A stretch of DNA of 64,000 nucleotides from Bowmanella yangjiangensis (GTDB taxonomy: Bacteria; Pseudomonadota; Gammaproteobacteria; Enterobacterales; Alteromonadaceae): the NCBI RefSeq assembly GCF_017255015.1, contig NZ_JAFKCS010000001.1, positions 244,772-308,771 of the forward strand, in the 5' to 3' direction. Below, piece after piece: positions 1 to 14,453 of the stretch (positions are counted from its first letter, which is position 1; the number at the start of each line of letters is the position of its first letter). A program made the position numbers and the translations under genes. The notes under the pieces were generated by a model, which had not been told where the DNA came from, did not search any database, and saw only the letters and a program-made list of their open reading frames with translations.

Positions 1-906
1 GACTCCATCGAGGTGGGCATTGTGGTAATAGATCGCCAGTTCAGAGTTAAGGTCTGGAATGAGTTTATGCACAATCATAGCGGTATTCAGCCAGACAGTA
101 TTCGCCACCAGTGCTTATTTGATTACTTCGATGAAATTGACCAGGACTGGTTCAGACAAAAAACCGAGCCGGTATTTACCCTTAAGAGCCCGGCTTTTGT
201 CATCTGGGAGCAGCGCCCTTACTTATTCCGTTTCACCAGTTACCGGCCGGTGACCAGCGCCAGCGATGTGATGTACCAAAATATTACCCTGTTTCCTCTG
301 GCGTCCCGCAGTGATGAAGCAGAACATCTATGTGTCGTGGTATACGACGTTACCGACGAAGTAATAAGTAAGCAGCGCTTGGCATCGGCTAATCAGCAGC
401 TTCGCCAGATGAGTCGGGTGGACGGCCTGACCGGACTTTATAATCGCAGATATTGGGAAGAAAGCTGCGAGCAGGAATTTAAGCGCTGCATGCGTAATCA
501 AGGCACATCCTCGGTGGTGCTGCTGGATATTGATTACTTCAAGAATATCAATGATACCTATGGGCACCCGGCCGGTGATCAGGTCATCCGGACCCTGGCT
601 AAAGCGATTCGGCAAATTGTGCGGGAAACCGATCTGGCCGGTCGTTATGGCGGTGAAGAGTTCGCCCTAGTATTGCCCGATACTAGCGCTGAGGCAGCGC
701 TACAAGTGGCAGAGAGAATTCGGGAATTTGTGCAAAAACAAGCGGTTGTTTACGAAGAACACAGCATCCCTTTCACCATAAGTTTGGGCATTTGCCAGTT
801 TAATCCGTCATTTAAAGGCTATATGGCCTGGATTGAGCAAGCGGACAAGGCTCTGTATACCGCCAAAGACAGTGGCCGTAACAACAGTCAGATTCAAGGA
901 CGCTAG
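1..906 (+). CDS. PAS-GGDEF diguanylate cyclase, 5' end cut by window edge
   Basis: The reading frame is open to base 1 and the first codons (DSIEVGIVVIDRQFRV) already look like the start of a PAS domain, so the real start lies upstream. The GTG at 13 is probably not the start. After the PAS domain comes a GGDEF domain with DGLTGLYNRRYW, the metal-binding DIDYFKNINDTYGH and an intact GGEEF signature. An RETD motif five residues before GGEEF matches the inhibitory I-site, so the enzyme should make cyclic di-GMP from two GTP and be subject to product feedback. This is the typical architecture of a signal-responsive cytoplasmic cyclase; the ligand of the PAS domain cannot be told from the sequence. 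Confidence 0.9.
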   Translation, partial: DSIEVGIVVIDRQFRVKVWNEFMHNHSGIQPDSIRHQCLFDYFDEIDQDWFRQKTEPVFTLKSPAFVIWEQRPYLFRFTSYRPVTSASDVMYQNITLFPLASRSDEAEHLCVVVYDVTDEVISKQRLASANQQLRQMSRVDGLTGLYNRRYWEESCEQEFKRCMRNQGTSSVVLLDIDYFKNINDTYGHPAGDQVIRTLAKAIRQIVRETDLAGRYGGEEFALVLPDTSAEAALQVAERIREFVQKQAVVYEEHSIPFTISLGICQFNPSFKGYMAWIEQADKALYTAKDSGRNNSQIQGR

Positions 907-2821: not shown

Positions 2822-3086
2822 TATGATCTCCTAAATATGATAAATCGCTGTCTAAGGGATCTTTCTTGGAATTTAATACCATGAAATTGATGATTTCTAC
2901 AAGAACGTGATAGGTGAGTAACTTAGCTAAAATACATATATACTGAGGTCTGTGGGAAGATGAAATTGTCATCATTAATCAAACCGCAGGAACTTGAGTA
3001 TTGGGGATTTTATTATCCTAATATAGTCGAAATCTAATGCTGTTCTGTGCTTTTTTGCTAGCTATTTTACTCAAGAATCTCTTATT

Positions 3087-4310
3087 TCATCTCTTCCTAA
3101 ATACGTTGTAAAATATCTCTTTAGACGTGAAGGTAGATAAAATGATCACTAAAGGAATTATAGGTAGCCTATATCTGTAAATGACATAAATAGCTCCATG
3201 AATTAAGCAGTAAAGAAGTATAGTTGACAGTATAAGGTAGTGTTTTCTATTAAACTTTCTAATAAAAAATAGGGAGCCCAAAGCTAGTGATATTATAGTG
3301 CTGTATATAACAAGCCAGACTAATCGAATAAGTGATTCTCCACTAGATTTTTCTCCCTTACCTTCGTGGTAAGGTGGAGTCCAAAAAACAATAACTTTCT
3401 CAATGGATAATTTTATTGTTGAAACGGGATTTTCAAATATATGAGTCAATGCCAACTGCTTAAGATGATTGAAAGCTTTTAATTCTCCCTTCTCTCTTTT
3501 TAGTTCGTACCATTCATCTGCAATAGGCGTGTCCATAATTGACATATAGTAGGCTGTTGAATTTTTGTTGTTACCTAGGTATAAGTTAAAACCACCATTT
3601 GTGGTTAGCACTGGCTCACCTAAATGAGATTTAGTATATATTAACCAAGGAAACAAAGTGATAAAGAATACAATAAAGAAAACCAAAACATTAGAAATGC
3701 TACTTAGGCTTATCCTACTTTTCTCCTTATTAAAATTAATTAGGAAAAATATAATGGGGATTATTGTGAATAAAATAGCGGATCCCACCAGAACTCCTAA
3801 GGCAAAGATCAAACCCAATAAAAAAGTTTTTATCTTTTCTCCTTGGTAATTTAGTAGGAGTAGCGTCTGCCCTAAAAGCAAAGGAGTCATTAGGTTTTCT
3901 TTAGCCAAATATTCTGTATATAGGATGTTTGGTGGATAAAAAATCCAGGCTAAGCAGGATATCAATGCCCAAAAATGGCTTTTCAAAAAAGTCTTTGCAC
4001 AAAAGTATAGTAAGATGGTAGATACTGCGCCTAAAAAAACATTGACAAATTGAGCTACTTCATAAGTTTTTCCAAATAGGCTTATAAATGGAATTAGAAA
4101 TAATGGATAACCAGCACTGTAGAAGGCTAAGTTACCATGTCCATCATCCATAACTCCGGTTTCCATTAAGGATGTTGCCATATTCCAATATGCAATAGCG
4201 TCTGATACTGGAGTTATAGATAAAAAGCTCACAGCCAGTGCTTTCAGTACTATGCTTGTAACCACAACAGCAACAAAGGTGCTTAACTCAAATTTACTCT
4301 TGAAAAACAT
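3087..4310 (-). CDS. GT39/ArnT-type membrane glycosyltransferase
   Basis: A 407-residue polytopic protein. The first periplasmic loop contains SDAIAYWNMATSLMETG, the position where GT-C/PMT-type enzymes carry their catalytic acidic residue, followed by SAGYPLFLIPFISLFG. About ten hydrophobic segments follow, along with a long loop with NLYLGNNKNST. Such enzymes take a sugar from a polyprenyl-phosphate carrier and transfer it to an envelope glycan or protein on the periplasmic side. It is the last gene of a three-gene operon with the HAD-UbiA protein and a small EamA/SMR carrier, and lies 44 bases after the carrier. Base composition is very AT-rich (roughly 27% GC in 3661-3720) compared with the surrounding chromosome, suggesting horizontal acquisition. 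The acceptor glycan is unknown. Confidence 0.8.
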   Translation of the reverse strand: MFFKSKFELSTFVAVVVTSIVLKALAVSFLSITPVSDAIAYWNMATSLMETGVMDDGHGNLAFYSAGYPLFLIPFISLFGKTYEVAQFVNVFLGAVSTILLYFCAKTFLKSHFWALISCLAWIFYPPNILYTEYLAKENLMTPLLLGQTLLLLNYQGEKIKTFLLGLIFALGVLVGSAILFTIIPIIFFLINFNKEKSRISLSSISNVLVFFIVFFITLFPWLIYTKSHLGEPVLTTNGGFNLYLGNNKNSTAYYMSIMDTPIADEWYELKREKGELKAFNHLKQLALTHIFENPVSTIKLSIEKVIVFWTPPYHEGKGEKSSGESLIRLVWLVIYSTIISLALGSLFFIRKFNRKHYLILSTILLYCLIHGAIYVIYRYRLPIIPLVIILSTFTSKEIFYNVFRKR

Positions 4311-4354
4311 CTTTAAAAATCCCTTTTTATTTTACTTATTGATTTAAAATAGTT

Positions 4355-4726
4355 TTAATTTTTTGAAATTAATAGAACACCGGAAACTATCAGCACAGTC
4401 CCTATTACTTTATTTGGTGTTAATGGTTCATGTAAAAACCAATAAGCAAAAAGCATGGTTCCTATAAAGCCAAGGCCAACAAATGGGTAAGCTTTACTAA
4501 CATCAACCTTGGCTAATACGCCTAACCAAACAGCTGCACTAGAAACATAAGCAAGAAGGCCTCCTATAATGAATAGGTTAGTAAAAATAGCTAATACGCC
4601 AGATGTGAGACTGATGCCAAATGAACTCTGAATTTCAGAATTAGACATTCCTTGCTTTAGCAATATTTGTGCTAGCACGGAAAGAGATACGCTAATGAGA
4701 ATGAGTGAAACCGATAAAATGTTCAT
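4355..4726 (-). CDS. Small EamA/SMR-type membrane carrier (candidate lipid-linked sugar flippase)
   Basis: A 123-residue protein with four membrane segments. It contains AQILLKQGM early on and KAYPFVGLGFIGTMLFAYWFLHE in the second half, the pattern of ArnE/ArnF-like and other EamA/SMR carriers. I start it at the ATG at 4726, which forms an ATGA overlap with the stop of the upstream HAD-UbiA gene; the longer in-frame start at 4759 would lie well inside that gene. Its place between a prenyl-phosphate sugar synthase and a GT-C transferase suggests it flips the lipid-linked sugar across the inner membrane. That role is inferred from context. Confidence 0.8.
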   Translation of the reverse strand: MNILSVSLILISVSLSVLAQILLKQGMSNSEIQSSFGISLTSGVLAIFTNLFIIGGLLAYVSSAAVWLGVLAKVDVSKAYPFVGLGFIGTMLFAYWFLHEPLTPNKVIGTVLIVSGVLLISKN

Positions 4727-6147
4727 AATATCTGCGCCGCGATTGCTATTAGGCCACAAAAACCTATGGTTACTAGACTACCTTTATCTTTTAATGAAAA
4801 AACTATTGGGTCGTCGTGCATTTCTCCTCTATGTGTTTTAATCCACATTCGCATAAGCCAATAACAGAGAGCTGGAACTATTAACCATAATATGTTTGGT
4901 TGTTGATATTGGTTAGTTAACACATTGTTGTTTATATAAAAACAGAACATCAAAACAGCAAGCATTGCTGAGGATGTGCCGAAACTCTCTAACACGGCAT
5001 AATCATTAATTTCATAGTCTCTTCCATTCGCTCTTTGTTTCCCTTCAGCTTCCATTGACTGGATTTCAGAGCATCGTTTTACTAACGCTAAACTTAAGAA
5101 AACGAAGATGGAAAAAGCGAACAACCAAAAAGAAACTATTACATTTATGGCTGCGGCTCCTGCTAATATTCTTATCGTATATAATAGCGCAAGAGCTACC
5201 ACATCCATACCAATATATTGTTTAATCTTGAAGGAGTAAAATAAGGTCAGAAACAAGTAAGCGATTAGGACTAATGAAAAGTTATAACCTAAATATGTAG
5301 CTATAAGTACGGATGTAGATAATAGGAATAGACTGGCAAAAACACCATTTTTAATACTTATAGTTCCTGCTGCTAAAGGTCTATTCTTTTTTCTCTTGTG
5401 TACTCTATCAGATTCCAAGTCGAGTAAATCATTTAGTATATATGTTGATGAGGCTAAGAAACTAAAGGCTAGAAACGCACTGATGATCGTGATTACGTTG
5501 TTGAAGTCAGTAAACCCACCAGACACAACTACGGGTACGAAAACTAATAAGTTCTTCAGCCATTGATGTACTCTGAGTTGTTTAGCCCAAACTTTAGTGT
5601 TAGATTTATGCTCATCAAAGACTCTATTTATTGGAATTTTTTTTGCTCTTTTTTTTGCCTTCTTAGTAGGGTTGACCAATAAACTCTCTGATGCTTCTTC
5701 AAATATTTCAAAATCTACTAAATCATTACCGGCATAACTGAACTTTTCGCTAATTTCCTTAATTCTTAATAACTTTGCTTTCCCTTTTAAATTTATTGCA
5801 TCACAACTGCTTATATATCCATCAAAAATATCAGTGTTTTTTACAATCTCTTTGGCGTATTTTTCATTTGAAGCAGTAGCTAAGTATAACTTCCTTCCCT
5901 TTCTTTTTTCTTCTACTAGATATGAAATAAACTCTTGGTTTAGTGGCAATGTGCTTGTATTTATTTCAGCGTGCTCAGAAAGCTTAGATTTTAGAGTGGC
6001 TTTTCCCTTAATTAGCCAAGATATACAATTGAATATGATGAATGGGTTAGCCTTAAAAGCTACTAAAAAACTTTCAAATAACAGGTCAGTCTTTGTATAA
6101 GTTCCATCTAAATCTACAAATAGTGGAACGTCTTTCATGTCTTCCAT
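4723..6147 (-). CDS. HAD phosphatase-UbiA prenyltransferase fusion, DPPR-synthase-like
   Basis: A 474-residue two-domain protein. Residues 1 to about 180 form a HAD hydrolase with the nucleophile motif DLDGT near the N-terminus and a late GNDLVDFEIF motif. The rest is a UbiA membrane prenyltransferase with NDLLDLESDRVHKRKKNRPL as the first Asp-rich motif, then IRILAGAAA and FVFLSLALVKRCSE. The latter segments resemble decaprenyl-phosphate 5-phosphoribosyltransferases more than ubiquinone-pathway UbiA. The natural reading is that the UbiA half attaches 5-phosphoribose from PRPP to polyprenyl phosphate and the HAD half removes the 5'-phosphate. This is family knowledge plus inference. GTG 6150 and ATGs 6147 and 6138 are all possible starts; none has a convincing ribosome site. 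It is the first gene of an AT-rich three-gene operon. Confidence 0.82.
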   Translation of the reverse strand: MEDMKDVPLFVDLDGTYTKTDLLFESFLVAFKANPFIIFNCISWLIKGKATLKSKLSEHAEINTSTLPLNQEFISYLVEEKRKGRKLYLATASNEKYAKEIVKNTDIFDGYISSCDAINLKGKAKLLRIKEISEKFSYAGNDLVDFEIFEEASESLLVNPTKKAKKRAKKIPINRVFDEHKSNTKVWAKQLRVHQWLKNLLVFVPVVVSGGFTDFNNVITIISAFLAFSFLASSTYILNDLLDLESDRVHKRKKNRPLAAGTISIKNGVFASLFLLSTSVLIATYLGYNFSLVLIAYLFLTLFYSFKIKQYIGMDVVALALLYTIRILAGAAAINVIVSFWLFAFSIFVFLSLALVKRCSEIQSMEAEGKQRANGRDYEINDYAVLESFGTSSAMLAVLMFCFYINNNVLTNQYQQPNILWLIVPALCYWLMRMWIKTHRGEMHDDPIVFSLKDKGSLVTIGFCGLIAIAAQIL

Positions 6148-6245
6148 CACACTTTTAGTTTTGTTGTCTATTTGTTGGTTTATGTTAACAGACAGCTTGG
6201 GTAAAGATACTCTTTTGTAAGCTTGCTTGATTACAATGTAATAAT

Positions 6246-7793
6246 TTACATTTTTGCATCAGCAATGGTCTGAATTTTATCGCGGATCATATACAGCAAC
6301 ACCAGGCTGGGAATAACCATTAATGCGGTCAGCACGAAAAAAAGCTGCCAGTTACCGCCTAGCGAGTCGACTATGACACCACTGTATGCCCCCAACGTGG
6401 TGCGACCAAAGGTGCCAATACTGGCGAGCAAGGCGTACTGGCTAGCGGTAAAGGCGCGGTTACACAACACCGAAATAAAGGCCATAAAGGCGACGGTGCC
6501 CCAGGCTGCGGTAAAACCGTCCACCACTATGGTGATAAACAGCAAAGTTTTGTCTGGTCCGACACTGGCCATCAGGGCAAACAACAGGTTGCTGGCCGCC
6601 ATGGCAATACCACCGACAAACAGACCTTTGATAATACCAATGCGTAAGTTTACTAAACTGCCGATGATAGAGGCCACTATGGTCACCGCCCAGGTTAGTA
6701 ATTTTGAGTACGTGGCGATATCTGAATTGCTGAATCCGATTTCTTTGTAAAAGACAATACTCATTCTGCCGAGTATGGCTTCGCCCATTTTAAACAGCAC
6801 CACAAACAACAGTAGTGACAGCGCAAGACGTACCCCATTGCGGTTGAAAAAGTCACGCAGGGGCTCTCCCATGGATACCAGCACCCAAGCCATTGCCTGC
6901 TGCGCTGGCCCGCCCTGCGTGGTTGTGCAGGCATTATGCTGACTAAGCATATGGCTGGTGGTGCGTATGGCATAAACCAGCAATGCCAGGACCAATACAC
7001 TGAATGCCAGGGTTTGGTACTCAAACCAGGTACTACCAAATACGCCGACAAAACAGAGCACAACTGCCGTTGCGATGGCGAGCATCACCAGCATTGCCTG
7101 GTGTCCCTTGGCAACCACTGCCGCCAGATAATGGGACTGCGCTTCCTGGTAGGCTTTATCGCGCATAGACTGAGGTTCTTTTGCCAGCCACACCCCCAGG
7201 GTAAGCAACAACATGATTGCACCTAGTAGCAGATAAACATCCGGCCAGTTCCAACCTGGCATATCTGCGACAAAAAACGGAATTGCCCCTAACAGCGCAT
7301 AGCCCGTCCACCATCCTGAGGTAGACATGGCTGCGGCACTGGATTGTTGTTCATTGTGTTTGGTATCTATGCTGTCGATCCGAAAGGCATCAATGGCAAT
7401 ATCCTGAGTGGCGGAACACAGGGCGATAAAAAGCGCGGCCAGGCCGGCCAGGGTCAGATTGCTGTTGGGGTCCACCTGAGAGAGCAGCAGGCAGCAGCAA
7501 GCAATCACTAGCTGCATACTCAGGATCCAGCCGCGACGTTGTCCTAAACGCTGACACAAAAAGGGAATCTTCAACCTGTCGAGCATGGGAGACCAGAGGA
7601 AATTTACCGAGTAGACGGCAAACACGGCGGTGAAGTAACCAATGGCTGAACGGGTCAATCCGGCATCCTTTAGCCAGGCTGACAGTACCGAGCCAATCAT
7701 GACCCAGGGAAAGCCGCTGGCAATGCCGAACAGGAAGATGCTTAGCATCGTGCGATTGCCAAATTGGCGAAGCTGTGAAATCAATGACTGCAA
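6246..7793 (-). CDS. AmpG-like major facilitator transporter
   Basis: A 515-residue protein of about fourteen membrane segments. The N-terminal region (GIASGFPWVMIGSVLSAWLK, then SVNFLWSPMLDRLK) matches the AmpG muropeptide permease pattern. AmpG imports anhydro-muropeptides for cell-wall recycling. Other AmpG-like carriers in marine Gammaproteobacteria have unassigned substrates, so the substrate is only probable. No peptidoglycan-recycling gene is adjacent. GC content returns to the chromosomal norm here, marking the edge of the AT-rich operon on its left. Confidence 0.8.
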   Translation of the reverse strand: MQSLISQLRQFGNRTMLSIFLFGIASGFPWVMIGSVLSAWLKDAGLTRSAIGYFTAVFAVYSVNFLWSPMLDRLKIPFLCQRLGQRRGWILSMQLVIACCCLLLSQVDPNSNLTLAGLAALFIALCSATQDIAIDAFRIDSIDTKHNEQQSSAAAMSTSGWWTGYALLGAIPFFVADMPGWNWPDVYLLLGAIMLLLTLGVWLAKEPQSMRDKAYQEAQSHYLAAVVAKGHQAMLVMLAIATAVVLCFVGVFGSTWFEYQTLAFSVLVLALLVYAIRTTSHMLSQHNACTTTQGGPAQQAMAWVLVSMGEPLRDFFNRNGVRLALSLLLFVVLFKMGEAILGRMSIVFYKEIGFSNSDIATYSKLLTWAVTIVASIIGSLVNLRIGIIKGLFVGGIAMAASNLLFALMASVGPDKTLLFITIVVDGFTAAWGTVAFMAFISVLCNRAFTASQYALLASIGTFGRTTLGAYSGVIVDSLGGNWQLFFVLTALMVIPSLVLLYMIRDKIQTIADAKM

Positions 7794-7906
7794 GAGAGGT
7801 ACTTGTTGCTTTTATTGTCGGCCTATTGGGCCATGACTTGTGGCGGGGGTCAAGCGAGGGGATTGTTCGTTGCAAACATCCTTAAATCAGACGATTTGCC
7901 AGCAGC

Positions 7907-8239
7907 CTATGGCCTGACGCCGACACAATCCAGAGGATATTGACCGTCACCTTCTAAATAGTCGAGGCAGGTTTGTAGTTCGCTACGCAGGAAAGGGTCT
8001 TCCAGCAGCTTCTGTTCTGACCAGAAATGTACTTGATGTAACAGGTGCCAGAATACGCGCTCCTTGGCGCTGAAAGGCTGGTTATTGCGGTCCTGCATCT
8101 GGTGCCATTCTTCCATGGTGTCCCAGAAATACAGATCTACTTCCCGGTATGGAATCCGTTTGTCCCAAAAGGCTCTTACAAAGTAGGCCAACTGCTTTGC
8201 CTTACGATTGATAAAACCCTGCACTGTCACTGGCACCAC
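7907..8239 (-). CDS. Small conserved protein of unknown function
   Basis: A 110-residue, aromatic-rich soluble protein with no signal peptide or membrane segment. It has a compact, charged, clearly gene-like sequence (KERVFWHLLHQVHFW, ending DCVGVRP), and I believe similar proteins occur in other Alteromonadales, but I cannot name a function. The start is a GTG; AAGGGG lies just upstream, and a second GTG two codons later would have better spacing, so the exact start is uncertain. It stands between ampG-like and DUF3530 genes on the same strand. Confidence 0.65.
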   Translation of the reverse strand: MVPVTVQGFINRKAKQLAYFVRAFWDKRIPYREVDLYFWDTMEEWHQMQDRNNQPFSAKERVFWHLLHQVHFWSEQKLLEDPFLRSELQTCLDYLEGDGQYPLDCVGVRP

Positions 8240-8312
8240 CCCTTTTCACTTTATCCGAGTATAGCTGGGAATTACGGATTCGCTGTATCAGGATGTAACG
8301 GAATAGCGCTAT

Positions 8313-9173
8313 TTACCAACCCATTTGGGTTAACCAACCTAAGATTTCTTTTGCCACATATGCGCTTTGGTTAAGGGCCATTGACTGGCCAACAATTTCC
8401 CGCTGGCGATAATGCAGTTTTAAGGCTTTTTTTGCGGCGACCTGGCGCTGTTTGCGGCTGTGTAGCGTCCAATCATTGTTCCAGGCGTTATAAATATCGA
8501 GCAGAGGGCTTGGCAGGTCGCTGACATACTGACTGAGTTGGTAATTCCACTCGCTGTCCGGCCAGAATGGCGCGATGGTAATCAGGGCATCTGGTGCGTT
8601 TAGTGTCCCTTCGGCATACAGCTTGGTGAGCCAGGCCGCGCTGGTTCCCTGGCTTATGACCAACACAAAACCCGGATATTGCTGGTTAAGTGGTGCAACG
8701 GCCATGAGTTGTTGTTGTAACTTACGCTCCTGCTGATCAAACTGGTCACGGGTCAGCAAGGATTGAAAGGTGCCGGGTTTTAGTGGCTCTGCAGCATCGC
8801 TCGCTGGCTGCTGGGCATCCGCGTCTGGAGTGTCAGTTGTGTCTTTGGCAGGATAAAATTCTGTCTGCGGTGCACTCATCAGCACCGTTGCCCAGCCCGC
8901 TTCATTTAAATATTGCACTAAAGGCTCGAGTGATTGGTCCCCCATATGCCCAAGGCCCAAGTCATTAACTAGTACTGCCATACCCCGGGTGTTGACTGTG
9001 GTGCTGTCATTTACCACGACGGTGAATTCAGTTTCACCCGCCAGCAGAGTTTGATATTGATGGGCAGGCATTGCATGTTGCACGTCTTCTGAATGCATGG
9101 CCTGCCTGTCCAGCTGCTGTGCGCTGGCACTGATTGAAAATAGGGTGAGTATCAGCAGGTAGGGTAACTTCAT
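8313..9173 (-). CDS. DUF3530-family secreted alpha/beta-hydrolase-like protein
   Basis: A 286-residue protein. I chose the ATG at 9173 because it begins a clear signal peptide (MKLPYLLILTLFSISASAQQ); the longer frame to 9236 would bury it. The mature part contains GMAVLVNDLGLG and VLVISQGTSAAWL, the latter resembling an alpha/beta-hydrolase nucleophile elbow but with SQGTS rather than a strict GxSxG. It should be periplasmic. Family members have no defined substrate. It lies directly downstream of rluA on the same strand. Confidence 0.75.
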   Translation of the reverse strand: MKLPYLLILTLFSISASAQQLDRQAMHSEDVQHAMPAHQYQTLLAGETEFTVVVNDSTTVNTRGMAVLVNDLGLGHMGDQSLEPLVQYLNEAGWATVLMSAPQTEFYPAKDTTDTPDADAQQPASDAAEPLKPGTFQSLLTRDQFDQQERKLQQQLMAVAPLNQQYPGFVLVISQGTSAAWLTKLYAEGTLNAPDALITIAPFWPDSEWNYQLSQYVSDLPSPLLDIYNAWNNDWTLHSRKQRQVAAKKALKLHYRQREIVGQSMALNQSAYVAKEILGWLTQMGW

Positions 9174-9236
9174 AGGCCTTCCAGATCTTCTTCTATCAGT
9201 GTATCGGACAGCCACGGCGGAACTTGAAGTTATCAA

Positions 9237-9893
9237 CTAAAACGGACAAGGACTGGTAAAGTGCAGCGGCACATGACTGCGAGGGTGGCTTAGTTGCAGT
9301 TCGCTGGCATGCAATTGCAGACGGTCCGCCATGCGCAGTGCCTGGCCCTTAGCGTACAGCTTGTCGCCCAAAATGGGGTGACCAAGGCTGAGCATATGCA
9401 CCCTAAGCTGGTGCGAGCGACCTGTAACGGGCTCAAGGCGTAGTAAAGACTGATGTTCCTGGCTATCGAGTATCTGCCAGCGGGTCAGGGCCTTTTTACC
9501 ACGCATGAAATCCACCATCTGCCTGGGACGATTAGGCCAGTCACAAATCAGTGGCAGATTGATTTCACCTGAATTTTGACGCGGTATCCCCCAGACTCTG
9601 GCCAAGTACACTTTAGCGGTCTGACGTCGTTCAAACTGCAAGGAAATCTGCTTGTGGCTGTCGCTATTAAGGGCCATCAGCATAATGCCAGAGGTAGCCA
9701 TATCCAGTCTGTGTACCACTGTGGCGCCTGGAAATACCCGCTGCACTCGCAGTTGCAAACTGTCTTTATGCTCGGCCGCTTTACCGGGCACCGACAGCAG
9801 CCCGCTGGGCTTGTTCAGCACCAGCAGGTCGTTATCCTGATAAAGGATCTGCAAATAGGGATGCAGTGGCGGCAGGTATTCCAGTAAGGCCAT
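9237..9893 (-). CDS. rluA: RNA pseudouridine synthase RluA
   Basis: A 218-residue pseudouridine synthase. The catalytic motif is VHRLDMATSG around residue 60, with the conserved Asp, and later motifs EPVTGRSHQLRVHM and GHPILGDKLYA are typical of the RluA subfamily. RluA converts a uridine to pseudouridine in 23S rRNA (746) and in several tRNAs (position 32). There is no N-terminal S4 domain, consistent with RluA rather than RluC/RluD. The start codon overlaps the rapA stop as TAATG, so translation is probably coupled. The rapA-rluA order is a common gammaproteobacterial arrangement. Confidence 0.92.
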   Translation of the reverse strand: MALLEYLPPLHPYLQILYQDNDLLVLNKPSGLLSVPGKAAEHKDSLQLRVQRVFPGATVVHRLDMATSGIMLMALNSDSHKQISLQFERRQTAKVYLARVWGIPRQNSGEINLPLICDWPNRPRQMVDFMRGKKALTRWQILDSQEHQSLLRLEPVTGRSHQLRVHMLSLGHPILGDKLYAKGQALRMADRLQLHASELQLSHPRSHVPLHFTSPCPF

Positions 9894-12715
9894 TAGTGGC
9901 TGTTCACCACCAGACGAATGGCTTCCAGCCTTACTTCTGCCTTTTCAATCGCTTGCAACAAGGCCGCCATCTGTTCACTTAGGTAACTCAATTCTTCTTC
10001 GCGTACCGAAGGATTGAGAGCCTTGAGGGTTTGCAGACGATCCAGTTCATCGCCAAGCAAACTACGCATTTGCTTGCTGGCGTTGTTACTAAGCTCTGCG
10101 GCCTGAGTGGCGGCCTGTTTAGCGGCAAGGGTCACCGCAGCATCGATCTGTGTTTTTAACGCCTCAACCAACTGTCTGCCCATCTTGCCTTTAAGGCGCT
10201 CTAGATTCACAAACTGCTGATTGCTGAGCTTACCGGCGGCGTCCACGCACAAGCGAATGGGGGTTGGTGGCAGGTATCTATGTAATTGCAAAGCGCGTGG
10301 TGCACTGGCACTGAGCACAAACAGACATTCCACCCAGTAACTGCCGTTTGGCAGGCTCTTGTCCTGACTTAGCGCCACGCTGCTCATGCCGATCGTGTCG
10401 GTGAGGATCATATCCAGGGCATGCTGCACCATAGGATGGTCAGCACTTAAAAAGCGCACGTCTTCGCGGGACAGGGCAATGCCACGCTCATAGGTGACGG
10501 TAATACCTTCTTCATCAAGACCGGGCAACTGGCTAATCATCGACTCGCCGGGGCGCAGAATGTAGCAATGCTCGTCCTTATCTTCCTGGGCAATACCTAT
10601 GGCATCAAACAAACGGGTCAGGAATAGCTCCAATTGCGGGCAATCATCCAGTTCGGCAATAGCTTCCACCAGGCTTTCTACATTGCCGCGGCCAGAGGAA
10701 TTAAGCTCCAGCAGCTTATCGCGGCCTTGCTCCAGCTTCTGTTTAAGCTGCTGATGCAGGCTTAAAGTGGTGCTGAGTAAGTCATCCACCCCATCTTCAT
10801 CCTGCTGGTTGATGCAGCGCAGCAGTTTGTCCTGTACCTGCTCAAATACCGCGGTACCCGTCGGACAGGTTTGCTCGAAAGCGTTAAGCCCTTGGTGATA
10901 CCAGTTGAGCATAAGTTGCTGGGCGCTTTGGGCAAAGTAGGGCACATGAATTTGAATATCACGTTTCTGACCAATACGGTCTAATCGGCCGATACGCTGT
11001 TCTAATAAATCGGGCACCAGAGGCAAATCAAACAGCACCAACTGGTTGGCAAACTGGAAGTTACGTCCTTCACTACCAATTTCACTGCAGATCAATACCT
11101 GCGCGCCCTCTTCAGATTGAGCAAAGTAGTTAGCCACACGGTCACGTTCAACTATGCTCAGACCTTCGTGGAACACGCCAGCACGAATACCGGCTTTCAC
11201 CCGCAGGGCTTCGGCCAGTTGCATGGCGGTGCCGGCGCTGGCACAGATGGTCAGGACTTTTTCGCCTTTTAAGCTTTGCAGCAAGCCGATAAACCAATCG
11301 ACACGCGGGTCAAGTTCGGTCCAGTGGCCTTGAATAAGCGGATGGCGCTCAGGGGTGAGGCGAAATTCCATCTTAAGTTCAGGATCGTCAAATAGCTGCG
11401 TATAACGCTCAGGCAAAGGCAGCTCATGAGTTACAAGGTGGCGTACCGGGAAGCCCTGGATACCGGCCCGACTGTTTCTGAATAACAGGCGACCAGTGCC
11501 ATGACGGTCAATCAGGTGTGCCAGCAATTTGCGTTTATCTTCGTCGCTGGCCTGGTTGATATTGGCCAGCGCGGCTTGCTCCTCTGGCGCAAAGTCAACA
11601 ATGGCCTGAATTTGCGCGTTGTCCAGTTGTTGTCCATCAACCAAAGGTGCAATGGCATCGGCCAGCGCCGCGTATTGCTGCTCTTCGGCCAAAAAGGCCT
11701 GGTAATCGTGGAAGCGAGCCGGGTCTAACAAGCGCAAACGAGCAAAATGGCTTTCATGGCCCAGTTGGTCTGGAGTGGCGGTAAGCAGCAGTACCCCTTT
11801 GGTTTGCTCGGCCAGCGCCTCAATGGCCTGGTATTCTTCCGATGCTTGCTCTTGTGACCATTGCAGGTGGTGGGCTTCATCCACCACTAACAAATCCCAG
11901 GGGGCTTCTACGGCCAGTTGACGGTATTGTGGGAAGCGGGTTAGAAAATCCAGGCTGCACAACACCAGTTGCTCAGACTCAAATGGGTTGCCGCCTTCGT
12001 CCGCCAAAGATTGGCAGCGTTCTTCATCAAAAATCGCAAAGGCCAGATTAACCCGGCGTAGCATTTCAACCAGCCACTGATGGACCAAACTGGAAGGCAC
12101 TACAATCATCACCCTGGAAGCGCGACCTGTCAGCAGTTGCTGGTGGATAATCAGCGCCGCTTCTATGGTTTTACCTAAACCAACTTCGTCCGCCAGCAAA
12201 ACCCGTGGGGCGAAACGGCTCGCCACGCTGCGGGCAATATGCAATTGGTGAGGAATGAGATCCACCCGTGCCCCTGTCATACCCAACAGAGGTGAGGTTT
12301 GATGCTGGTGCTGATGGTTAAGGCAAGCCAGGCGCAAATCAAACCAGCGTGGGTCATTAAAGTTGCCGCTATAAAGGCGCTGATCGGGTTTATCTAATTG
12401 GTAGTTGTGGTCAACAAAGGTTTCTTTGAGCTCCACCATTTGGCCATTATCCAGGCGTTTGCCAATATAAGTCAGCTGCCCGGCGCTTTCCTTGCTGCTT
12501 TCCACCTGCATCTGCCAGCCTTCATGGCTTTTTACCTTGTCGCCTACGACGAATTCGATACGGGTCAGCGGCGCGTTATCAGCGGTGTAAGTACGGCTTT
12601 CACCGGTGGCGGGAAACAGCAATGTCAGGGTGCGGCCCTGGGCATCGACTACGGTTCCCAGACCCAGCTCGGTTTCGGTATTACTGATCCAGCGCTGACC
12701 TAAGGCAAACGACAT
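9893..12715 (-). CDS. rapA: RNA polymerase-associated ATPase RapA
   Basis: A 940-residue Swi2/Snf2-type ATPase. The N-terminus MSFALGQRWISNTETELGLG matches RapA, which fixes the start at 12715 rather than the longer 12733. Walker A DEVGLGKT lies near residue 173, the DEAH box in VVDEAHHLQW near 277, LLLTATPDQLG near 315, and the second helicase lobe ends with LDRIGQKRDI. RapA binds core RNA polymerase and promotes its recycling after transcription. The length equals the usual one and no lesion is visible. It is followed without a gap by rluA. Confidence 0.96.
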   Translation of the reverse strand: MSFALGQRWISNTETELGLGTVVDAQGRTLTLLFPATGESRTYTADNAPLTRIEFVVGDKVKSHEGWQMQVESSKESAGQLTYIGKRLDNGQMVELKETFVDHNYQLDKPDQRLYSGNFNDPRWFDLRLACLNHQHQHQTSPLLGMTGARVDLIPHQLHIARSVASRFAPRVLLADEVGLGKTIEAALIIHQQLLTGRASRVMIVVPSSLVHQWLVEMLRRVNLAFAIFDEERCQSLADEGGNPFESEQLVLCSLDFLTRFPQYRQLAVEAPWDLLVVDEAHHLQWSQEQASEEYQAIEALAEQTKGVLLLTATPDQLGHESHFARLRLLDPARFHDYQAFLAEEQQYAALADAIAPLVDGQQLDNAQIQAIVDFAPEEQAALANINQASDEDKRKLLAHLIDRHGTGRLLFRNSRAGIQGFPVRHLVTHELPLPERYTQLFDDPELKMEFRLTPERHPLIQGHWTELDPRVDWFIGLLQSLKGEKVLTICASAGTAMQLAEALRVKAGIRAGVFHEGLSIVERDRVANYFAQSEEGAQVLICSEIGSEGRNFQFANQLVLFDLPLVPDLLEQRIGRLDRIGQKRDIQIHVPYFAQSAQQLMLNWYHQGLNAFEQTCPTGTAVFEQVQDKLLRCINQQDEDGVDDLLSTTLSLHQQLKQKLEQGRDKLLELNSSGRGNVESLVEAIAELDDCPQLELFLTRLFDAIGIAQEDKDEHCYILRPGESMISQLPGLDEEGITVTYERGIALSREDVRFLSADHPMVQHALDMILTDTIGMSSVALSQDKSLPNGSYWVECLFVLSASAPRALQLHRYLPPTPIRLCVDAAGKLSNQQFVNLERLKGKMGRQLVEALKTQIDAAVTLAAKQAATQAAELSNNASKQMRSLLGDELDRLQTLKALNPSVREEELSYLSEQMAALLQAIEKAEVRLEAIRLVVNSH

Positions 12716-13055
12716 GAAGACTCCTGATGACAAAAATTGCGGCGCGGGATCTTATGTGAGAATCCCCGCCGGGGCAATTCGCACCGGGACTTTTAATCAT
12801 CACCCGGGGCAACAAACAGACAAATATTCCATTTAGTACAAATATTGAGCAAACAAACAGGTGTCAGCTCCGCTTCTCTAAAAATAGGTGATTCACCAGA
12901 AAAAGTGTTTTATTGTGAGGTTGTCAGGCCACGGATTTCAGTTAGTCGGCCTGCACAGGGGAATGCGCGGTTCATGACTGGCTTCTGCTGGTCGTGGGCA
13001 TTATCACACCCCGCCAGTAATCGGACGGGGTGGGAACAACCAGCCGGAGATGCGA
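12716..13055. other. Gene-free divergent spacer between rapA and phoH
   Basis: About 340 bases that must hold the promoters of both divergent genes. I see no convincing coding frame. The only strong structure is an inverted repeat at 13007-13032 (CACCCCG and CGGGGTG arms), described separately. Confidence 0.6.
13007..13032 (+). promoter_or_regulatory. Hairpin just upstream of the phoH start
   Basis: Arms CACCCCG (13007-13013) and CGGGGTG (13026-13032) can pair over a 12-base loop. The right arm ends about 14 bases before the GGAGA ribosome site of the PIN-PhoH gene. It could affect translation initiation or be a protein-binding site. It has no U-tract, so it is not an ordinary terminator. 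Function is unproven. Confidence 0.35.
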
Positions 13056-14453
13056 ATGGTCAGAACCAAACCTGCCAACAGCAAAATTTACGTCCTCGAT
13101 ACCAATATTCTTCTTCACGAACCTTTTGCCTTCCTGTCCTTCAAAGAGCATGACGTGGTAGTACCCATGACGGTGCTTGAGGAGCTGGACTATATCAAAG
13201 ACAGTAAAAAAGACGTGTCCCGCGACGCCCGTATATCCATACGAGCGATGGAAGATGTATTACATGAAGCGACGCCGGACCAACTCACCGCTGGCGTGTC
13301 ATTAAAAGGTCTGGGGTCTGGCGAGGCTGCGCCCACCGGGAGACTGTCGATTTTTGCCGATGTCGGTATGCCAAAATCGCAGCAGGTGTTTACCAGCAAC
13401 GAAAACGATAACCGTATAATCAATGCGGCCCTGCATATACAACAGCGTGCCACGCCGCGCCAAGTGGTATTGGTCACCAAAGACATCAATATGCGCCTTA
13501 AAGCCAAAGGTGCCGGCCTTGCCCACGTAGAAGATTATCGAACCGATCAGTTGGTTAGCGATATCAAGTACCTGAGTAAGGGCTATCACAAGTTCACCGG
13601 CAATTTCTGGGACAAGGTCAAGACAGTGGAAAGCCGCACCGAAGGCCGGGAGACTGTTCATGTGTTGGACCGTAAGGTATTCCCTGAGGCCTATATCAAC
13701 GAGTTTTTGATCGACGACAGTAAGGCGTTTGCCGGTATAGTCGAATCGGTGTCAGACTCAACCCTGGAAATTCTCGACCTTGGTTATGAGCGACTAATGT
13801 CTCGTAAAGCCTGGGGCATTCATCCCAAGAATATTGGTCAGGCGATGGCGCTGCACGCCCTGTTAGACCCCCATATTGATCTGATTATTATGACTGGCCC
13901 GGCTGGGTGTGGCAAAACCTTGCTGGCACTGGCAGCAGCGTTGGAGATGGTGGTAGAACGCAAGATGTACGATAAAATCATCGTTACGCGCAATACTCCG
14001 GAAATTGCTGAATCTATTGGCTTTTTGCCCGGCACCGAAGAAGAGAAAATGGCCCCATGGTTGGCGGCTATCACCGATTCATTGGAAGTGCTGCATAAGA
14101 ACGACGAGAACGTGAAAGGCTCCATGAGCTACATCATGGAAAAAGCCAATATTCAGTTTAAGTCGGTGAACTTTATGCGCGGGCGCAGCATTCAGAACTC
14201 TATTGTGATCCTGGATGAGAGTCAAAACCTGACGGCATCACAATTGAAAACTATTATTACCCGTTGTGGCGAAGGAACAAAGTTAATCTGTAGCGGTAAC
14301 CTGGCGCAGATTGACTCAAACTATCTGTCACCCGTTACCTCTGGTTTAACCTACCTAGTTGAAAAATTTAAGAATTTCGCGGGTAGCGCTACAATTAACC
14401 TGGATGGTGTAGTACGTAGTCGCCTGGCAGAGTTTGCCGAAGAACATTTATAG
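13056..14453 (+). CDS. PhoH-family PIN-ATPase (PhoH2-like)
   Basis: A 465-residue protein with a PIN ribonuclease-like domain at the N-terminus (YVLDTNILLHEP, then VLEELDYIK) and a PhoH P-loop ATPase domain at the C-terminus (GPAGCGKTLLAL near residue 280, VILDESQNLTASQLKT later). PIN-PhoH proteins are proposed RNA helicase/ribonucleases. I prefer the ATG at 13056, which has GGAGA five bases upstream, over 13050, where the same site would touch the codon. A REC-GGDEF gene follows 15 bases later, so the two are probably cotranscribed. Confidence 0.9.
   Translation: MVRTKPANSKIYVLDTNILLHEPFAFLSFKEHDVVVPMTVLEELDYIKDSKKDVSRDARISIRAMEDVLHEATPDQLTAGVSLKGLGSGEAAPTGRLSIFADVGMPKSQQVFTSNENDNRIINAALHIQQRATPRQVVLVTKDINMRLKAKGAGLAHVEDYRTDQLVSDIKYLSKGYHKFTGNFWDKVKTVESRTEGRETVHVLDRKVFPEAYINEFLIDDSKAFAGIVESVSDSTLEILDLGYERLMSRKAWGIHPKNIGQAMALHALLDPHIDLIIMTGPAGCGKTLLALAAALEMVVERKMYDKIIVTRNTPEIAESIGFLPGTEEEKMAPWLAAITDSLEVLHKNDENVKGSMSYIMEKANIQFKSVNFMRGRSIQNSIVILDESQNLTASQLKTIITRCGEGTKLICSGNLAQIDSNYLSPVTSGLTYLVEKFKNFAGSATINLDGVVRSRLAEFAEEHL

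Follow-up and report, generated by a model that had tools for sequence, protein, structure and literature searches.

Which product is made by an AT-rich group of three genes in the genome of Bowmanella yangjiangensis, and how did these genes come to lie where they are found? The window, i.e., the whole stretch of DNA analyzed, comprises 64,000 nucleotides of contig NZ_JAFKCS010000001.1 (positions 244,772 to 308,771), and the genes are arranged on its minus strand at positions 3087-6147 in the order HAD-UbiA fusion, small carrier and transferase. An initial annotation had described them as an overlapping, possibly imported operon for a lipid-linked pentose pathway. The operon itself is real, and its coordinates and strand were borne out. 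With a probability of roughly 82%, the three genes form a pentofuranosylation cassette with three components, which belongs to the epimerase-free type that transfers ribose. In this pathway, the fusion enzyme would load ribose onto a membrane lipid by converting polyprenyl phosphate and phosphoribosyl pyrophosphate (PRPP) into polyprenyl-phospho-ribofuranose, the carrier would take the lipid-linked ribose across the membrane and the GT-C transferase would hand it on to a sugar chain or a protein at the surface. The basis in hand consists of protein family, predicted fold, conserved catalytic residues, gene linkage, the finding of no DprE1 and the insertion at this site; the chemistry of the pathway and the role of the carrier are proposed by analogy with a prototype from Citrobacter youngae. 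The genes are:

4723 to 6147, minus strand: HAD-UbiA fusion, 474 amino acids from ATG 6147 or 475 from GTG 6150
4355 to 4726, minus strand: EamA/SMR four-helix carrier, 123 amino acids, start ATG 4726
3087 to 4310, minus strand: GT-C transferase of the ArnT/PMT type, 407 amino acids, without an extra C-terminal domain

The reading frame of the fusion opens with GTG 6150, contains ATG 6147 in frame and ends at 4723; residues are numbered from GTG 6150 throughout. Overlap is confined to the first two genes, which are joined by an ATGA at 4726-4723, whereas carrier and transferase are separated by 44 bases. Promoter-like sites did not exceed chance (7 observed vs. 14.6 expected).

The pathway as such is not novel, as the combination of fusion, carrier and GT-C enzyme was worked out in 2024 for C. 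youngae O1 (ORF15, ORF14, and ORF12; Kelly et al., 2024; PMC11127046). The evidence for this prototype comes from mutants and from assays in vitro, and its authors regard the strategy as widely used. The HAD-UbiA protein ORF15 (AWU66546.1) converts PRPP to farnesyl-phospho-ribose, and a mutant of its HAD aspartate yields the 5-phosphate and little farnesyl-phospho-ribose. ORF12, a GT-C enzyme and founder of family GT136, transfers the ribose, and the small carrier ORF14 is described as the likely flippase. Systems without an epimerase yield ribofuranose, those with ORF13 yield xylofuranose and arabinofuranose systems carry DprE1/E2 homologues (Kelly et al., 2024). The combination described for such systems, a UbiA phosphoribosyltransferase plus HAD, an EmrE/ArnE-like carrier and a GT-C enzyme in the same operon, is present in the window. 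Both loci share a HAD-UbiA fusion with the same catalytic motifs (matched by motif), a small EmrE/ArnE-like carrier, a GT-C enzyme and no epimerase. They differ in that ORF12 reaches at least residue 652 and includes a carbohydrate-binding module, which is dispensable there, whereas the 407-residue transferase of the window has none. Furthermore, the C. youngae genes belong to an O-antigen locus, while the cassette of the window is on its own, with a PqiA-like gene on one side and an AmpG-family gene on the other. Very probably, the operon is a well-conserved further case of the 2024 pathway and not a new mechanism. What it adds is an epimerase-free lineage, a compact transferase without binding module, a transferase family of its own and a three-gene cassette.

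The fusion is very probably a polyprenyl-phosphate phosphoribosyltransferase with an N-terminal phosphoribose phosphatase, as judged from profiles and a structure prediction. NCBIfam family NF006088 covers nearly the whole protein (598.6 bits, cut-off 351). Models for decaprenyl-phosphate phosphoribose (DPPR) synthase come next with 154.5, 145, and 107.6 bits (E-values of 3e-45 to 8e-31), and the remaining UbiA-superfamily models follow from 60.9 bits downward, starting at an E-value of 1e-16 (PRK12884). The UbiA model gave 36 bits (5e-9) and haem O synthase 32 bits (7e-8). Among PDB sequences, matches below 0.01 were limited to DPPR synthase (8j8j/8j8k) and an archaeal UbiA homologue, with E-values of 2.5e-25 for 8j8j vs. 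4e-5 for the homologue. In the predicted model (predicted local distance difference test score, pLDDT, 92.5), the UbiA half superimposes on 8j8j with a Z score of 27.5 and a root-mean-square deviation (rmsd) of 3.0 over 284 residues (aligned region 184-475), compared with Z 20.7 for archaeal UbiA 4tq3. The HAD half (residues 1-183) is best matched by 3fvv (Z 17.4); Helicobacter pylori SerB, a phosphoserine phosphatase, reaches Z 15.1. The earlier description of the UbiA half as DPPR synthase-like, and not a quinone or haem prenyltransferase, is therefore upheld by profiles, PDB sequence match and predicted fold. The halves and the candidate catalytic motifs are located as follows:

5599 to 6147, minus strand: HAD phosphatase half, approximately residues 1-184 (structural match; boundary set near residue 184, where the UbiA match begins)
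4726 to 5598, minus strand: UbiA-type phosphoribosyltransferase half, approximately residues 185-475 (Pfam UbiA at 216-447; 8j8j over 184-475)
6106 to 6114, minus strand: HAD nucleophile motif D13-L-D15, counterpart by motif of C. youngae ORF15 D18
5407 to 5433, minus strand: metal/PRPP motif N240-D241-x2-D244-x3-D248, counterpart by motif of ORF15 N247/D248/D251/D255
5065 to 5076, minus strand: R359-x2-E362 loop, counterpart by motif of ORF15 R366/E369

In an alignment of 87 HAD-UbiA fusions, N240, D241, D244, and D248 as well as R359 and E362 are identical in every row, D13 is present in 86 (one gap) and D15 in 82. The loop residues R366/E369 are reported to be non-essential in ORF15 (Kelly et al., 2024). 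D143 had been considered as a second HAD motif and was dropped, as only 10 of the 87 rows carry an aspartate there. The genome encodes two further UbiA proteins with Pfam UbiA scores of 232-236 bits, consistent with quinone and haem synthesis relying on proteins other than the fusion. The notion that a phosphatase-synthase fusion is unusual or rare in Gram-negative bacteria had to be rejected, since NF006088 is a curated family, and 37 of 299 Pseudomonadota genomes contain a protein that scores above the cut-off. A search for the whole fusion in phages returned a single match, to a record of 6.6 kb, which covers 48% of the query at 30.8% identity.

For the transferase, the label “GT39-type” was corrected to GT-C fold, ArnT/PMT-like. 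Its sole Pfam match is a weak one to PMT_2 (28.3 bits, cut-off 26.1), which is found at an E-value of 0.01 or better in 18 of 28 aligned members. No NCBIfam family was assigned to the protein (weak matches in 4 of the 28), and neither a single-sequence nor a profile search of solved structures gave a significant match. The predicted model (pLDDT 93.1) adopts a GT-C fold and is closest to ArnT (5f15; Z 24.2, rmsd 3.9 over 316 residues), with ALG12, PMT, and OST enzymes close behind and the mycobacterial arabinosyltransferases Emb and Aft at Z 14-17. The last helix of the 407-residue model ends at residue 405, and a C-terminal carbohydrate-binding module is absent. Two sites invariant in the 28 rows are candidates for the active center:

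4188 to 4202, minus strand: Asp37 and Tyr41, which follow the first helix and are candidate catalytic residues, role proposed from ORF12 D31/Y35
3168 to 3176, minus strand: R379-Y380-R381 motif, role proposed from ORF12 R349/Y350

A similar D-x3-Y spacing and a similar pair of neighboring R and Y are seen in D31/Y35 and R349/Y350 of ORF12, a likeness of motifs and not an alignment; these ORF12 residues matter in the C. youngae enzyme (Kelly et al., 2024).

The carrier is assigned to Pfam EamA (36.6 bits, cut-off 28.2) and, by analogy with the prototype, is presumed to be the flippase for polyprenyl-phospho-ribose. EmrE and ArnE are SMR/DMT proteins. ORF14 is compared with both in the description of the prototype, yet it is filed there under MATE (Kelly et al., 2024).

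Conservation of the three genes was assessed from the transferase. A contig scan with the single sequence gave no relative and a search of plasmids no match; an alignment-based scan then yielded 50 loci, 41 with close relatives and nine with distant ones (L158-L166; L and G numbers denote our loci and genomes). As the initial annotation required for its reading to hold, the genes are conserved together: fusion and carrier lie within 5 kb of the transferase in 38 of the 41 close-relative loci, on the same strand in 35 of them and on the opposite strand in L140, L144, and L156. Excluding the query genomes (L117 and L152), 36 of 39 loci keep the three genes together. Neither partner gene was found at the nine distant loci. 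In genome G976, which was found separately and then added to the query alignment, the gene order is the same and the transferase has 50% identity. The cassette is kept across gamma-, beta-, and alphaproteobacterial records, with Janthinobacterium and Sphingopyxis among the environmental bacteria that carry it. Its neighbors vary between loci, and several look by eye like unrelated housekeeping genes, which fits a stand-alone modifying cassette. Some other relatives of the fusion are accompanied by a different large membrane protein at the position of the transferase. The protein of L066 passes PMT_2, and those of L004, L089, and L091 pass no model, their GT-C nature being a guess. Identical fusions occur in L135 and L136, from metagenome-assembled genomes named uncultured Aquabacterium and Pseudomonadota bacterium, which might be close kin or share a contig.

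The identity of the sugar is argued from the epimerases. A DprE1 search of the genome returned only matches of 24.3 and 18.9 bits, with no DprE1 adjacent to the cassette, and DprE1 or DprE2 was found within 9 kb at none of the 41 transferase loci, some of which have short flanks. Since no DprE1 was found, the product should be polyprenyl-phospho-ribofuranose and not arabinose. Of the lipid-linked pentose pathway initially described, the ribose biochemistry thus appears largely right, while the derived pentose is less likely, and arabinose was dropped as the first-choice product.

Several observations weigh against a ribose cassette. The fusion remains below the equivalog cut-offs of DPPR synthase and PRK12324 (154.5/207, 145/234, and 107.6/474 bits), and by these scores it is a relative and not an equivalog. 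Likewise, the carrier stays under the NCBIfam cut-offs for ArnF (53.2/99) and ArnE (33.9/92); it may work like ArnE/ArnF and is not filed as one. In C. youngae, the flippase activity of the carrier is itself described as inferred and not proven (Kelly et al., 2024). At three loci (L132, L150, and L151), the transferase occurs without fusion and carrier in the flanks at hand. Finally, an unlinked epimerase of the ORF13 type, a short-chain dehydrogenase/reductase (SDR) that may be encoded elsewhere in the genome, would lead to xylose instead of ribose.

This last point underlies the best-surviving alternative, itself improbable, by which xylofuranose or another epimer would be made with the help of an unlinked SDR epimerase similar to ORF13 of C. 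youngae O2. In its favor, genomes commonly encode SDR proteins. In addition, ORF12 of the prototype accepts both ribose and xylose donors (Kelly et al., 2024). Against it stands the cassette itself, which contains no SDR gene, although no ORF13-specific genome search was made. A generic SDR gene is situated 3.4 kb from the fusion at L093 (G631), and SDR-looking genes were noted by eye downstream at L127 and L131.

Still less probable is arabinofuranose, for which unlinked DprE1/DprE2 would epimerize the lipid-linked ribose prior to its transfer; mycobacteria use this route, and it has been proposed for the pilin of Pseudomonas. Indeed, 28 of the 36 Pseudomonadota fusion loci outside the window carry DprE1 within 7 kb, two have a DprE2-like gene only and six have neither (one at a contig end). 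However, besides the weak genomic DprE1 matches and the DprE-free transferase loci, the phylogeny of the fusion speaks against it. In a quick tree of the 87 fusions, the window falls into a group of eight rows that all have the carrier and lack DprE (Shimodaira-Hasegawa-like approximate likelihood ratio test, SH-aLRT, 100). On this tree, six changes are needed for the label “carrier without DprE”, compared with 28.8 in shuffles, near-copies helping such clustering; for these labels, L093 was scored as DprE on account of its generic SDR, and L060 as DprE-free with carrier because an EamA gene lies at some distance on the opposite strand. A similar division is seen in the order to which the window belongs, where 14 of 394 genomes contain the fusion at an E-value of 1e-60 or better. 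The eight fusions at least 50% identical to that of the window (its own included) have the carrier adjoining and no DprE1, while the six with 38-44% identity have DprE1. Among 343 genomes of the family of G038, the sole fusion found is that of G038 itself, which is of the DprE type. In L068 and L069 (G235 and G232), homologues of DprE2 and DprE1 are encoded on the strand opposite the fusion gene and do not form one operon with it. In L060 (G200, 6488-8434), the fusion frame has approximately 170 extra N-terminal residues, thioredoxin-like by eye, giving 648 amino acids in total.

That the UbiA half is a quinone, haem or other lipid prenyltransferase, in an operon without a glycan role, is highly improbable and was rejected: its Pfam label is just UbiA, but profiles, PDB sequence match and fold all favor DPPR synthase, and GT-C and carrier genes are linked in 38 of 41 loci.

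As a ribose cassette, the operon can be compared with three further systems. Like the mycobacterial decaprenyl-phospho-arabinose pathway (Rv3806c, Rv3807c, DprE1/E2, Rv3789, and Emb/Aft), it combines a UbiA-type phosphoribosyltransferase (8j8j), a small carrier and GT-C acceptor enzymes; mycobacteria differ in having a separate, unrelated phosphatase, epimerases and a decaprenyl carrier lipid (Kelly et al., 2024). The NF006088 loci at large share the same fusion enzyme, but contain DprE1, usually DprE2 and in some cases GtrA, and their predicted product is arabinofuranose. Gtr cassettes for O-antigen glucosylation (GtrA, GtrB, and a serotype-specific Gtr) also rely on a lipid-linked donor, a flippase and an exchangeable GT-C enzyme. 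There, however, a GtrB-type enzyme makes the donor from a UDP-sugar, instead of a UbiA enzyme from PRPP (Kelly et al., 2024).

How the cassette reached its position can be addressed from base composition and from related genomes. It lies within the following segment:

2830 to 6245, no strand assigned: AT-rich insert, flanked by a PqiA-like gene at 2243-2821 and by an AmpG-family gene at 6246-7793 and delimited by its GC content of 33.6% and by breaks in homology

The left (1-2829) and right (6246-14000) flanks have 49.9 and 52.1% GC, respectively, and the whole window 48.2%, in agreement with the low GC content noted initially; no other stretch of equal length in the 64 kb falls below 41.1%. 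Four other genomes of the genus (G388, G1096, G309, and G355) were compared at this site, and all contain the flanking AmpG-family gene. In G388, homology to the window ends at 2820 and restarts at 6283, with approximately 57 bases between and no insert. The distance from the AmpG-family gene to the match to the first gene of the window (1-900) is 260 bases in G1096 and 74 bases in G309, and the insert is absent from both along with the genes at 918-2821. G355, the closest of the four (AmpG protein 94% identical), keeps both flanks, with homology ending at 2835 and restarting at 6246. Between them, it exhibits a different AT-rich insert (L113:7521-9757; 2,237 bases, 37.7% GC) coding for a FeeM-like N-acyltransferase (N-acyl amino acid synthase) and an LCM-type methyltransferase. 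DNA therefore seems to have been inserted more than once between these flanking genes, PqiA-like and AmpG-family, which marks the interval as a likely insertion hotspot. In a sample of 118 genomes of the family, a relative of the fusion at an E-value of 1e-40 was found only in the genome of the window and in G346, and thus not in G309, G355, or G388 (G1096 lies outside this sample). Long repeats were not detected at the ends of the insert, where only short, chance-like repeats were seen. The comparison with the four genomes supports the initial suggestion that the three genes were imported at this site. G355 carries a second AT-rich insert (L113:10334-11596, 39% GC) between its PqiA-like and LigB-type dioxygenase genes, with an open reading frame of 237 residues that has no Pfam or NCBIfam family at an E-value of 0.01.

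Which acceptor receives the ribose can be addressed only tentatively. It is possible, though doubtful, that the cassette with its GT-C enzyme of approximately 420 residues is a ribofuranosylation module for the XrtA/PEP-CTERM system that decorates the XrtA exopolysaccharide or PEP-CTERM glycoproteins, the transferase being exchanged while fusion and carrier are kept. If so, ribofuranose side groups would be a directly testable structural feature of the PEP-CTERM exopolysaccharide system. The genome has an XrtA/PEP-CTERM exopolysaccharide locus on contig C889, where all ten scanned proteins exceed the cut-offs of XrtA-system models (exosortase A, 325 bits). An exosortase match was obtained in 39 of 41 genomes, namely the genome of the window and 40 others with the transferase (that of L137 lies outside the set). 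This set includes the query genomes L117 and L152 and the three loci with a transferase lacking its partners; the misses are the genomes of L135 and L144, and the match for L136 is weak (31 bits). Within the order, an exosortase above cut-off is present in six of eight genomes with a DprE-free fusion vs. 78 of 386 others (Fisher p 0.0016; 5/7 and p 0.0056 without the genome of the window), and in one of six DprE-type genomes (G437). The distance of fusion and carrier from the exosortase gene is approximately 16 kb in G542, 11 kb in G346 and 49 kb in both G485 and G457. On the Vibrio alfacsensis plasmid pYa108 (L004), fusion and carrier are situated between XrtA-system genes. The fusion of this plasmid is 68% identical, and a tyrosine recombinase is also aboard.

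Other observations weigh against such a link. An exosortase match is found in 30 of 35 listed genomes of the family regardless of the cassette, so that the co-occurrence hints at an XrtA-linked acceptor but is taxonomically confounded. G666 and G631 contain fusion and carrier and gave no exosortase match, and in the genome of the window, cassette and XrtA locus are on different contigs. The flanks of the 50 transferase loci yielded no match to exosortase, XrtA kinase or chain-length proteins, and an XrtA O-ligase match at five of them (L125, L133, L140, L150, and L156). Because the O-ligase occurs at five of 50 loci and the exosortase at none, a physical link between the XrtA system and the cassette is not general. 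Among the titles listed, a literature search found no paper tying the ribose cassette to exosortase, and neither UbiA nor a prenyltransferase was found in the main text of Haft et al. (2006; PMC1569441).

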